Positions 11,028-14,334 of a DNA stretch of 64,000 nt are shown here, one piece after another (position 1 is the first letter of the stretch; every line of letters begins with the position of its first letter). The translations under genes and the position numbers were made by a program. Under the pieces are notes generated by a model. The model was not told the origin of the DNA. It made no database searches and saw only the letters and a program-made list of their open reading frames with translations. Origin of the DNA: Betaproteobacteria bacterium (GTDB lineage: Bacteria > Pseudomonadota > Gammaproteobacteria > Burkholderiales > Eutrophovitaceae). The stretch lies in assembly GCA_020354125.1 (NCBI GenBank), contig CP070643.1:3922612-3986611 (forward strand), given 5' to 3'.

Positions 11028-11336
11028 ATGGACACTCAGGAAGTCATCAGAAAACAGGTAACCGACAATCCGGTTGTGCTTTACATGAAGGGTACGCCGG
11101 ACGCGCCGATGTGTGGATTCTCTGCCGCGGCGGTGCAGATACTTGAAGCTTGTGGTGCCGACAATGTCGCGACGGTGAACGTTCTGGCCGACAACGACAT
11201 CCGTCAGGGCATCAAGGAATTTTCGCAGTGGCCGACCATTCCGCAGCTGTATGTGAACGGCGAATTCATCGGTGGCGCTGACATCATGCGTGAGATGTAT
11301 CAGTCCGGCGAACTTCACAAGCTGTTCCAGAAATAG
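11028..11336 (+). CDS. grxD: Monothiol glutaredoxin (Grx4 type)
   Basis: A 102-residue single-domain glutaredoxin with the CGFS active site (Cys29 in APMCGFSAAA). Monothiol CGFS glutaredoxins bind glutathione-ligated 2Fe-2S clusters and take part in cluster delivery. QWPTIPQLYVNGEFIGG holds the cis-Pro and glutathione-binding region. ATG 11028 is preferred over an upstream GTG at 11001 because AAGGA ends 7 nt before it. It appears to be a separate unit following prmC. Confidence 0.94.
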   Translation: MDTQEVIRKQVTDNPVVLYMKGTPDAPMCGFSAAAVQILEACGADNVATVNVLADNDIRQGIKEFSQWPTIPQLYVNGEFIGGADIMREMYQSGELHKLFQK

Positions 11337-11403
11337 GACAACTTCCGCGGATAGGCCGGCACGAGCTGGCCCTTGTTTTCCTCCGCAAGCCAACGCACTA
11401 GCA

Positions 11404-11721
11404 ATGACCAACTATCGTGGCGTGCATGACATCGGTGGTTTGCCGGCCGGCGAAGTTGTGCCTGCAGAGCATGACTACGCGCTGTGGGAGAAACGTGTCG
11501 ACGCCATGATGGTGCTGCTGTCGAAAAAAGGCCTGATGACAGTCGATGAACTGCGCCGCAACATCGAAAGCCTTGGCGCTGACGCCTATGACAAGATGAG
11601 TTACTACGAGCGCTGGATCTATGCGATCACGCAGACCCTAATCCAGCGCGGCGTCATCAGCATCGATGAACTGGGCCGGCACATCGCCGCCGTTCAGGCA
11701 AGAAGCGATGACGAGAACTGA
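11404..11721 (+). CDS. Nitrile hydratase/thiocyanate hydrolase-type subunit (beta N-terminal half)
   Basis: A 105-residue protein matching only the N-terminal half of nitrile hydratase beta subunits: RGVHDIGGLPAGEV, then YALWEKRVDAMMVLLSKKGLMTVDELRRN and a YYERWIYAI segment. In ordinary nitrile hydratase this half is fused to an SH3-like half. Here the SH3-like part is the next gene, overlapping by 14 nt. Known split enzymes include thiocyanate hydrolase (scnB-scnA-scnC order), whose arrangement this matches. A P14K-type metallochaperone is an alternative reading for this small gene, but no other gene supplies the N-half. Function is structural around the metal subunit encoded at 12390. Confidence 0.75.
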   Translation: MTNYRGVHDIGGLPAGEVVPAEHDYALWEKRVDAMMVLLSKKGLMTVDELRRNIESLGADAYDKMSYYERWIYAITQTLIQRGVISIDELGRHIAAVQARSDDEN

Positions 11722-12013
11722 ACCGATTAAGCCGCGATTCCGGGCGGGAGACCGGGTGACGGTTCGCGAGGCTTACCCGATCGGCCATGTCCGCACGCCC
11801 TATTACGTTCGCGGCAAGTCAGGCGTGATCGAACGTTTCTGTGGCGCCTATGCCAATCCTGAGGAACTTGCCTACGCGCGTCCCGGGCTGCCGAAACAGC
11901 CGCTATACCGGGTGCGTTTTCGGCAAGCCGACATCTGGCGGGATTACGCGGGTAAGGACAGCGACACCGTAGATCTCGAGATTTATCAACACTGGTTAGA
12001 ACCTATCTCATGA
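11708..12013 (+). CDS. Nitrile hydratase/thiocyanate hydrolase-type subunit (beta C-terminal, SH3-like half)
   Basis: A 101-residue protein corresponding to the SH3-like C-terminal half of nitrile hydratase beta: FRAGDRVTVRE, HVRTPYYVRGKSGVIERF and PLYRVRFRQADIW, ending HWLEPIS. ATG 11708 lies inside the end of the preceding gene, so translation is coupled. Its last codons and stop (12011-12013) fall within the left inverted repeat of the element at 11998. The insertion has therefore supplied or altered the C-terminus just after the conserved W-L-E-P. The subunit packs on the metal-binding subunit at 12390 in known homologues. Confidence 0.8.
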   Translation: MTRTEPIKPRFRAGDRVTVREAYPIGHVRTPYYVRGKSGVIERFCGAYANPEELAYARPGLPKQPLYRVRFRQADIWRDYAGKDSDTVDLEIYQHWLEPIS

Positions 12014-12385
12014 TCGTTCACGCGATGCGTTACGCTGAAAAGATGGATGTCTGGCCGCTCCAAAAACAGTGTGGTGAATGTCGGGAAATGCCGAAACGAT
12101 TCGGACGAGCAGGTAGTGAGCGTAACCCTGCGGGCTGCGGCTGCGACTCGGTACGCGAAGCGCTGGTGCGGGAGCAGACGCGTGAAGCCCCGGCACCAAG
12201 CCGTTTGCGCAGCCGGTGCGCCCCTGCCCGCTCCACTCTTCGAGAGTCCGAGTCCGGGGCGCTAATTTTCGCCCTGGGCGTTGTTACTTGCTCCTTGTTT
12301 GGGCCTACCAAACGGCGTCGCGCGTGCCTAGCCAAGAGCCAAAATCGTCGCCATCGCACACGCAAACAATCATGAGATAGGTTCT
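11998..12385. mobile_element. 388-bp MITE-like inverted-repeat element inside the hydratase operon
   Basis: AGAACCTATCTCATGAT (11998-12014) is repeated exactly in inverted orientation at 12369-12385. Similarity continues inward, with about 22 of 27 positions matching. No transposase-sized frame lies between, so it is a non-autonomous element. Internal pairings are present (GCCCCGG near 12187 with CCGGGGC near 12254; ACTC-TTCGA-GAGT). The ends resemble termini of IS5-type elements, but that is an impression. A clear flanking duplication is not visible. It separates the second and third subunit genes and provides the leader of the third. Confidence 0.75.
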
Positions 12386-12389
12386 GAGC

Positions 12390-13022
12390 ATGAGCGAACA
12401 TCATCAGGAAGGTGTCCCGCATCGGCATCCGTTGCGTCCGGATCAGGATGACACTTTGACCTATTGGCGGGCGATGGAAATCGCATTGCGTCAATTGTTG
12501 ATAGAGAAACAGATTACCACCGCTGACGAAGTGCGACGTGAAGTCGAGGCAATGGATAATCGCTCGCCGGCGCATGGTGCGCAGGTCGTTGCGCGTGCCT
12601 GGACTGATCCGCAGTTTCGCGAACTGCTGCTATCGGATGGCAACGCTGCCTGTGAAGCACTCGGCTTCGAACGTGGTCTGTACAAGTTAATAGCCGTGGA
12701 AAACACCGACAAGGTGCACAACGTTGTGGTTTGTACGCTGTGTTCGTGTTATCCACGCTTCCTGCTTGGCCTGCCCCCCGACTGGTACAAGAGCCGCAAC
12801 TACCGTTCTCGTATGGTCAACAGCCCGCGTGAAGTACTGCGTGAGTTTGGGACGACGGTTGCCGACGACGTCGTCGTCCGTGTCCACGATTCGAACGCCG
12901 ATATGCGCTATCTGGTGGTGCCGAAGCGCCCCGCGGGCACTGACGGCTGGAGCGAGGCGCAGCTGGCCGAGCTGGTCACCAGGGACGCCATGATTGGCGT
13001 GGCGATGGCCTGCCAACCCTGA
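12390..13022 (+). CDS. Nitrile hydratase alpha/thiocyanate hydrolase gamma-type metal subunit
   Basis: A 210-residue catalytic subunit with the metal claw C115-T-L-C118-S-C120 inside VVVCTLCSCYP. The Thr variant is associated with cobalt enzymes, whereas Ser is associated with iron. The downstream LGLPPDWYKSRNYRSRMV and SPREVLREFG blocks are typical of the family. With split beta-type partners upstream, this is either a three-subunit nitrile hydratase or a thiocyanate hydrolase. The residue after CSCYP is R-F rather than the W-P usual in nitrile hydratases, which slightly favours a non-classical substrate. ATG 12390 begins 4 nt after the inverted-repeat element, and no strong ribosome-binding site is left. 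Confidence 0.85.
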   Translation: MSEHHQEGVPHRHPLRPDQDDTLTYWRAMEIALRQLLIEKQITTADEVRREVEAMDNRSPAHGAQVVARAWTDPQFRELLLSDGNAACEALGFERGLYKLIAVENTDKVHNVVVCTLCSCYPRFLLGLPPDWYKSRNYRSRMVNSPREVLREFGTTVADDVVVRVHDSNADMRYLVVPKRPAGTDGWSEAQLAELVTRDAMIGVAMACQP

Positions 13023-13374
13023 GCCTTTCGGCGGCGTTCTCCGGGCGTCGGTCGCCCTTCCCAGAGCATCCCTGGCAGCTTCCCTGAAGACTGTCAGTAA
13101 ATGACCGTTGTCAGCACATGTAAGCCATCGATTCTTACCATCAGAGGCTTGGAATCGCCTTGTCGAGGGGATGTTGACGGCGCCTGATCGCGTCGATGCG
13201 GCTCAGGGCATCGAGCCAGGTTGGCATTCTAATTGCAGATCATGGTGTCGACGAAACTCAGATTCAGCGATGTGCCGAAGAAAGTTGGCGTGACCAAGAG
13301 CCTGCATCCGGATCGAGGCTACAGAGTTCCGGGTTTTACGGCGGCCATTGCCGCTGATCAATGGAGGTGGGCTT
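13023..13374. other. Intergenic region carrying a candidate sigma-54 promoter
   Basis: This gap of about 350 bp follows the hydratase operon. Apart from the -24/-12 match at 13222 and a GGAGGTGG ribosome-binding site at 13363-13370, I see no gene, repeat or obvious terminator. A 61-codon frame at 13108-13293 has no recognisable motif. Confidence 0.5.
13222..13237 (+). promoter_or_regulatory. Candidate sigma-54 (-24/-12) promoter of the kinase gene
   Basis: TGGCATTCTAATTGCA keeps the GG and GC dinucleotides at the exact sigma-54 spacing (consensus TGGCACG-N4-TTGCW). Predicted start is near 13249, about 125 nt before the kinase start codon. No enhancer site was identified. Confidence 0.5.
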
Positions 13375-14334
13375 TTGTCATCCGATCTTCGCGCACTTGA
13401 CGGTCAACTTCTGCCGATGATCTCGCAGGACGCTTTACAAAAAGGCGTATCGGTTCTCAAGCGGACCATCACGGTGCGTCAGCCGCGCCGTTTCCGCTTG
13501 CCCGAGAAGGGTGAAACCATCTCGCATGGCGATCGCAATTACCGAATCGGCGAAAAGCTGGGTCGCGGTGGCTTTGGCGTCGTCTACGAATGCAGCGATG
13601 AATGGGGCAACGCGCTGGTCGCCAAAGTGATCCTGCCACACGATCGACCCTATGCAGAAGTACGTGAGAGCTGGCTGCAGGAAGCCGGCAAGCTCATGGA
13701 CCTGCGACACCCGAATATTACCTTTGTGCGTGATGCGTTCGAGCACCAGGACACGTTTTACCTGATCATCGAGCGCTGTAATTTTCCCTTGATGCAGGTC
13801 ATCACCAGTATCGGTCTGGACGCCGAACGTTGGCTGCCGTACGTCGCTCGCGATGTGTTGCAGGCGCTCGATTACATTCATGCGCATGGCTACATTCACA
13901 AGGATCTGCATCCAGGAAATGTCTTTGTGGTGGAATCACGGCAGCAGGCGGCGTTCATACACCGCATTGTGCGCTCGTTCAAAATAGGTGATCTGGGCTT
14001 GACCAGACTCGAAACCGATGTTCGGGCTTTTCAGACGAGGTTGGCGGAATGGATGCGTCCGCCCGAAATTATCGACCCTCGTACATTCGGCGCCAGCGGT
14101 CGGCAGATTGACATCTATCAGGCGGGTCTGTTGCTGCTGTCGCTGCTGCTCAAGGAAATCCCGTACTTCACCAGTGACGAGATCGTTGAAGGAATCCCGC
14201 AACAAGTAGCGCAGGATCACGCTTCGCCCTACGCGCCGGTCATTGCTCGTGCCTTGCGCCGCCATGTCGAATGGCGCACCCAGACTGCATTGGAATTTTG
14301 GCGCGAGCTTTCCGCCGTGACTAATTCTTCTTGA
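13375..14334 (+). CDS. Ser/Thr protein kinase with altered catalytic motifs
   Basis: A 319-residue cytoplasmic kinase-domain protein without a membrane segment. The glycine loop is GEKLGRGGFGVVYE (about 59-72) and the ATP-anchoring Lys is K84 in LVAKVIL. The catalytic loop reads YIHKDLHPGNVFVV (HRD changed to H-K-D177, followed by H-P-G-N). The magnesium loop reads KIGDLGLTRL (DFG changed to D206-L-G). Key acidic residues remain, so activity is possible. TTG 13375 is preferred because GGAGGTGG lies just upstream; an earlier TTG at 13348 lacks one. A sigma-54-like promoter precedes it. Its 3' end runs into a 15-bp repeat array. Substrate unknown. Confidence 0.85.
   Translation: MSSDLRALDGQLLPMISQDALQKGVSVLKRTITVRQPRRFRLPEKGETISHGDRNYRIGEKLGRGGFGVVYECSDEWGNALVAKVILPHDRPYAEVRESWLQEAGKLMDLRHPNITFVRDAFEHQDTFYLIIERCNFPLMQVITSIGLDAERWLPYVARDVLQALDYIHAHGYIHKDLHPGNVFVVESRQQAAFIHRIVRSFKIGDLGLTRLETDVRAFQTRLAEWMRPPEIIDPRTFGASGRQIDIYQAGLLLLSLLLKEIPYFTSDEIVEGIPQQVAQDHASPYAPVIARALRRHVEWRTQTALEFWRELSAVTNSS

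Follow-up and report, generated by a model that had tools for sequence, protein, structure and literature searches.

The catalytic alpha-subunit gene of a hydratase operon is separated from the preceding beta-subunit gene by a 388-bp element. Judged from its sequence, this element is genuinely mobile, and is a MITE with IS5/IS427-like ancestry. As a mobile element it is ordinary, a new member of a known sort; what is mildly new is the gene-edge layout that is repeated at operon junctions, together with the covariation of its two arms. Three natural insertions have been found in which the element lies in a packed stop/start junction and one of its ends serves as the stop of the upstream gene. 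We propose, at rather less than an even chance, that three steps acted jointly: past mobilisation of IS5 type, landing in a junction that tolerated the element, and pairing of its arms, which would re-make the coupling between the beta-C and alpha genes. The operon lies in a window of 64,000 nucleotides (the whole stretch of DNA analysed), part of a single-contig genome of 4.24 Mb (G000) that is 92.5 % complete.

The hydratase operon and its gene edges

The three subunit genes run in one direction and have the operon plan of the three-subunit nitrile hydratases and thiocyanate hydrolases, with the beta chain split in two genes and followed by alpha (Table 1). The alpha subunit scores slightly above the cut-off of TIGR01323; as a nitrile hydratase it reaches 251.7 for a cut-off of 249.85, and as a thiocyanate hydrolase it falls below the cut-off (215.9 for 291.45). 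Its CTLCSC motif is presumably of the Co type, and its closest matches in named genomes come from betaproteobacterial MAGs. The beta genes share 14 nt (11708-11721), tight spacing thus being kept at the first operon junction.

Table 1. Features around the insertion, in window coordinates. The PF02211 score was obtained with the NHase_beta_C protein searched from position 11711.
Feature	Position	Strand	Description
NHase_beta_N subunit gene	11404..11721	+	105 aa; Pfam PF21006, E 6e-19
SH3-like NHase_beta_C subunit gene	11708..12013	+	101 aa, ends HWLEPIS; PF02211, E 1e-24
Catalytic alpha subunit gene	12390..13022	+	PF02979, E 2e-80; CTLCSC motif
MITE	11998..12385	+	388 bp; core GAACC...GGTTC at 11999-12384
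Left terminal inverted repeat	11998..12014	+	encodes E-P-I-S-stop; contains ATGA (12010-12013)
Right terminal inverted repeat	12369..12385	-	carries AGGT (12379-12382)
Optional internal hairpin module	12135..12260 (limits approximate)	+	absent from all eight 233-269-bp copies of the alignment
TTAG at left junction	11996..11999		TA at 11997-11998 is the left duplication copy; the frequent target of the family is CTAG
121-codon frame	12010..12375	+	opens at the ATGA of the left end; 14 nt lie between its end and the alpha start

At the second junction, the alpha start follows the beta-C stop after 376 nt in the window. In agreement with the initial annotation, the left end of the element supplies the last four codons (E-P-I-S) and the TGA stop of the SH3-like subunit gene, while its right end forms the leader of alpha and leaves 4 nt before the ATG. 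The best Shine-Dalgarno-like stretch before alpha is the AGGT of this right end, with a weak duplex of -3.7 kcal/mol. The three hydratase frames, described from the outset as intact, are all open and show dN/dS values of 0.05-0.12 against two relatives; the values for alpha (0.07-0.08) indicate purifying selection over the comparison as a whole, into which the branch after the insertion is pooled.

A mobile family with copies and empty sites

The limits of the element and its 17-bp perfect inverted ends proved correct on recheck, and 23 of 27 positions agree over a longer stretch. Its arms are the sole perfect 16-mer inverted pair with a span below 700 bp in the whole window, and such pairs were absent from mononucleotide shuffles of the window (n=20). 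The element is short and has no transposase gene. In its own genome it gives 46 BLAST matches (self included, many partial), and its 16-nt end occurs, with at most 3 mismatches, at 56 sites, compared with 6 for the reversed control. These counts, together with the empty sites of relatives described below, bear out the first description of the element as MITE-like, and the further copies that it called for exist: 19 copies with both ends were found, window copy included, of which 17 were extracted with both ends and two, of 52 bp, are hardly more than the two ends. Copies range from 52 to 678 bp, the base form of the family being 233-269 bp, and internal hairpin modules are optional. Of 61 genomes searched, own included, seven have a match to the element, several of these to the internal module or to one side only, and of 399 genomes taken from the order, 12 contain the end together with CTAG (pattern CTAGARCCTATCTCA). 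Rfam at gathering cut-offs returned only a tRNA over the window, and blastn of the element against a plasmid collection gave no match.

The two closest relatives have an empty site at the hydratase junction. In L108 and L107, whose alpha subunits are 86 % and 82 % identical, the element is missing and the beta-C stop and alpha start overlap by 4 nt (ATGA), in agreement with the proposal of the initial annotation that the element splits the operon and rewrites its gene edges. Loci L078 (G001) and L079 (G003) give values equal to those of L108 and L107 and probably represent the same genomes. Among the best 80 of 171 alpha-relative loci, beta-C adjoins alpha in 79; in none of these 79 pairs is the gap near 376 nt, and the largest BLAST gap is 282 nt, compared with 380 in the window. 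In the same set of 79, a candidate alpha start at -4 is present in 34 loci and a WLEP tail resembling the element-supplied one in 26. A further 29 loci were inspected, of which 13 have both genes, with a largest gap of 128 nt and none near 376 nt. The spacer is not conserved in the orthologous operons inspected and the element has further copies in the genome; the refuting condition set by the initial annotation did not hold, and the MITE reading stands.

The eno insertion reveals the target. The empty site of G001 (locus L300) reads AATCTAGGCTGA / AATCTAGGCTGAATG; in the filled site of the own genome, AATCTA precedes the element (GAATC to GGTTC), which is followed by TCGCCTGA / TCGCCTGAATG. 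This comparison gives a CTAG target and a 2-bp TA duplication, of which the right copy has changed since. The duplication of the hydratase copy is imperfect (TA on the left, TG on the right), as is that of several other copies. Since the duplication at eno is 2 bp, the hydratase flank must have drifted. A plain 2-bp duplication restores the ATGA frame of the relatives only with a further small indel, and the pre-insertion letters of the hydratase site are therefore beyond recovery. A 3-bp TNA duplication, whose removal would give HWLA-stop and the ATGA overlap, was considered and set aside, as eno shows 2 bp. Of two other sites looked up in G001, the cobD-like one is without the element, its flanks being separated by 124 nt of different sequence, and the ribD site carries the element.

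Copies, empty sites, target duplication and insertion sequences that carry both related ends and a transposase all contradict a native spacer or an unrelated palindrome devoid of mobility. No point in support of such a reading was found; it has been ruled out as a working explanation, and we give it practically no chance.

A putative IS5-type mobiliser

Two elements from genomes of the same order, of 840 bp in G063 and 842 bp in G106, are bounded on both sides by CTAGAACCTATCTCA. The sequence TAGAACCTATCTCA is identical in both, and the TA plus terminus that they have in common with the MITE amounts to 14 nt. The G063 element encodes an intact IS5-family transposase frame (NF033580, E 8e-66, cut-off passed) with the Pfam domains DUF4096 and DDE_Tnp_1; in G106 the IS5-family transposase frame is broken. 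A search with the G063 protein recovered no partner transposase from the own genome, and the transposase family search, which covered 14 genomes and recovered G063 as positive control, returned from this 92.5 % complete genome one match of 25.8 bits for a cut-off of 110. The full-length insertion sequence with the same ends that the initial annotation had proposed to look for thus exists in other genomes, G063 and G106, and was not found in its own. The IS5_3 transposase of G001 was rejected as partner, its locus (L251) being without these ends within 3 mismatches.

As no transposase of this family exceeds the cut-off in the own genome, the mobiliser has to be deduced from other genomes, which suggest past mobilisation of the MITE by a transposase of the IS5 family (IS427-like) favouring CTAG and duplicating TA. 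Length and the 2-bp duplication, from which alone the subgroup is assigned, would fit IS427; in a table of Paracoccus insertion sequences, elements of the IS427 group measure 832-865 bp and 2-bp repeats are given for 10 of 11 (PMC3281130).

Stop codons and leaders at other copies

Six of the 19 copies overlap the stop codon of a neighbouring frame (frames being long ORFs, not gene calls) and 13 do not. The six stops belong to the hydratase beta-C subunit, enolase, RibD, a CobD-like protein, LepA and a class II tRNA synthetase with a GAD domain. In four of them the stop is a TAG made at the junction, three times within CTAG and, at lepA, within GTAG. In the hydratase subunit and in enolase, the element end adds E-P-I-S or E-S-I-S and then the stop, the enolase tail reading FYNL-ESIS-stop. 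On the other side of the element, the next gene starts after 4 nt (alpha), 7 nt (DivIC/FtsB-like) or 4 nt (riboflavin-synthase-like, hereafter ribE-like), which makes three stop/start junctions with a close leader: hydratase, eno/ftsB-like and ribD/ribE-like. An S26 peptidase gene lies in the same direction 35 nt past the lepA copy, and a NUDIX gene, also in the same direction, 107 nt past the tRNA synthetase copy. The riboflavin-synthase-like frame after the ribD copy (L003:1770-2354, G000 near 2,432,945) has one in-frame stop after codon 65, and is either a pseudogene or the product of an assembly error.

These edges could have arisen from target choice. CTAG is 7-fold depleted (245 observed for 1693 expected in 464 kb), and the 245 sites comprise 28 stops, 76 intergenic positions and 141 positions inside frames; because the target is rare and often a stop or intergenic, the harmless edges are largely explained. 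On such grounds the hydratase insertion might be merely tolerated, with a harmless tail on beta-C, alpha read from its own weak site and no regulatory role, which we consider almost as probable as the preferred reading. The layout itself argues against this, as a stop in the left end with a start 4-7 nt past the right end recurs at three junctions.

RNA folding and covariation of the arms

The initial annotation had also suggested that internal complementary segments provide RNA structure, and this found support in both folding and covariation. The element has an MFE z-score of -3.85, none of 100 shuffles folding as well. Six copies of 267-269 bp have in common a closing stem formed from both ends and two inner arms, with 98.3 % of the cells paired. 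Eight pairs show two-sided changes, compared with 2.9 +/- 1.3 in shuffles; this comparison leans towards the structure, which had itself been built from those six copies. When the partner is slid by 1-3 columns, 0 or 1 two-sided pairs are left. Across 20 copies (19 own and one of G001), 365 of 400 comparisons at the first 20 arm positions agree. Right arms dealt between copies gave 335.7 +/- 4.2 agreements, and the observed value was reached in none of 10,000 trials. This covariation may reflect selection on structure, matching or recognition by the transposase, or template-switch repair. How inverted ends stay alike, given that changes are matched between the arms within each copy, is a separate question.

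Opening the region from -18 to +9 relative to the alpha start has a calculated cost of 16.4 kcal/mol; this cost is 9.6 when the beta-C stop is occupied by a ribosome footprint and 8.1 without the element. When the left arm is shuffled, it becomes 9.15 +/- 0.28 (60 trials, in a slightly different context). For the ftsB-like start the corresponding costs are 12.9, 9.7 with the ribosome and 9.7 without the element, and for the ribE-like start 29.9, 9.9 and 17.5 kcal/mol. Random starts of the own genome (150 of 281, each defined as the first ATG in a long ORF) have a mean opening cost of 11.6 +/- 3.7 kcal/mol; 14 of the 150 are at least as closed as alpha, 51 as ftsB and none as ribE. Gating of the start by the paired ends is plausible in this model, with the ribE-like gene as the strongest case. 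Starts as closed as that of alpha are not rare, which suits an insertion without regulatory role; the fall to 9.6-9.9 kcal/mol at all three junctions once the upstream stop is occupied speaks against it, with the caveat that the native ftsB value is ordinary.

Another possible regulatory effect has also to be considered, in which the element lowers alpha relative to beta through closure of the start, RNase III acting on the long stem or Rho acting on the untranslated 376 nt. The stem has 17 perfect pairs, and with a longer upstream context opening of the alpha start costs 16.5 kcal/mol in the window and 6.9-11.9 in six relatives. There are also precedents in the portion of the review consulted, as RNase III cuts transcripts at the ends of Correia elements and in ERIC an RNase E site becomes unmasked (PMC10969869). 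However, alpha is the catalytic chain and its dN/dS is low over the whole comparison. The case for an intrinsic terminator in the element is also weak: the match at 12252-12279 has a poor T run, and the region 11300-13400 holds 3 terminator-like sites, compared with 1.4 +/- 1.4 in shuffles. We regard a lowering of alpha as unlikely.

A possible re-made coupling

The preferred reading, in which arm pairing re-makes the coupling, would proceed as follows. The MITE landed where the beta-C stop meets the alpha start, which in the relatives overlap by 4 nt. Its end can hold a stop in two of the three frames, either as the TAG of the junction or, in those copies that have it, as TRA at element positions 14-16. 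The insertion would have been tolerated because one end can carry a stop and the other leaves alpha a short leader. In the mRNA, beta-C ends in the left arm and the right arm is the leader of alpha; pairing of the arms would presumably hide the ribosome site of alpha. A ribosome finishing beta-C would sit on the left arm, open the stem and free the alpha start, which must remain accessible long enough once this ribosome departs. The coupling lost with the ATGA overlap would in this way be partly re-made, with the open 121-codon frame as a possible second route. If the ends do re-create coupling, this would provide a simple rule for the sites at which such elements survive and for the evolution of operon spacing.

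A broader proposal, which we consider doubtful, is that this MITE family, through its inverted ends, acts as a portable operon splice and makes downstream translation dependent on the upstream ribosome. The left arm would bring the upstream stop and an anti-Shine-Dalgarno-like ACCU, and the right arm the downstream AGGU site. The element could thus enter the tight junctions of essential operons with coupling intact, and arm covariation would hold the pairing.

The internal 121-codon frame

The left-end ATGA also allows for a ribosome relay, in which ribosomes leaving beta-C would restart there, read the 121-codon frame and restart at alpha, 14 nt beyond its end. When the interior is shuffled with its dinucleotides kept, only 50 of 2000 trials leave the frame open, and MIRUs offer a precedent in the part of the source available (PMC12548453). 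Nonetheless, 15 of 17 other copies are without the ATG at this position (11 have ATA or ATC, 4 ACA or ACC), and several are nearly open in the same frame, its openness being therefore partly inherited. The product gave no family match in Pfam or NCBIfam. We regard the relay as very improbable, and the frame was set aside as a gene, being without relatives.

Relation to known systems

The element resembles the IS427 group of the IS5 family by the ends that it has in common with relatives of ~834 bp, by their IS5-type transposase, by the CTAG target and by the TA duplication; it differs in that it has no transposase gene and in that no partner was found in its own genome. To our knowledge, the MIRUs of mycobacteria do not have terminal inverted repeats of the type found in this MITE. 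According to the text consulted, they are mobile repeats at start codons whose internal frame may keep coupling, and RNA unfolding and ribosome scanning are described as routes of coupling (PMC12548453). While a MIRU frame is coupled at -4 to the downstream gene, the frame of the MITE stops 14 nt short of alpha.

In the portion of the review consulted, small mobile repeats are frequently presented as disrupting genes or as providing promoters, IHF sites or RNase sites (PMC10969869). There, the Chunjie MITE of Geobacter uraniireducens is similar in size, lies within an operon and has size-variable copies; the title of its original paper, as cited in that review, has the operon structure left undisturbed, and the review itself states that one operon copy is disrupted (PMC10969869). 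In contrast to the present element, ends that supply the stop or leader of neighbouring genes do not appear in this description (PMC10969869). Correia (NEMIS) and ERIC elements are similarly small, with ends acting in mRNA, but as described there they work by providing promoters, by binding IHF or through RNase processing, and not by gating a start site (PMC10969869). The enterobacterial RU repeats with open frames (Delihas) are small and enter or extend genes in frame, whereas a stop/start layout at operon junctions is absent from their abstract-level description (PMC2759123). MITEPsy1 of Pseudomonas syringae has a CTAG or YTAA target but, from the part consulted, differs by its 4-nt duplication, 100-nt length and other ends (PMC3189936). 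A literature search on MITEs at operon junctions, the supply of stops or Shine-Dalgarno sites and coupling, covering few subscription papers and partial texts, returned no description of this MITE family, the MIRUs being the nearest case.

Modules, flanks and related elements

Sequences resembling the internal module, of the form 'GCGGCTGCGACTCGG...CCGAGTCCGGGGCGC', occur at ~70-76 % identity in other genomes (L064, L069 and L073 of G002; L071 and L075 of G051), and no MITE ends were seen around it in the G002 stretches inspected. The module is perhaps an independent repeat family that entered the MITE as a hairpin. Four copies (L019, L008, L011 and L010) have common flanks of the type gtgtaYcc ... 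aRgagtacatg, themselves partly inverted, which would correspond either to insertion within another repeat or to a subfamily with longer ends. Several others (L006, L007, L015 and L021) have flanking words in common, with gctacg on one of the two sides, and may therefore lie within a second repeat family.

The flanks of the ribD/ribE-like insertion are 1.3 Mb apart in G001 (near 632,360 and 1,940,940; L304, L308, L189 and L067). Each adjoins an end of the same element family, with runs of N there, and their separation is due either to recombination between copies or to misassembly. Elements of similar plan, with similar ends and inner inverted arms but a different sequence, occur in G005 (L192 and L195) and G050 (L070 and L074), which may point to a broader MITE group within the order.
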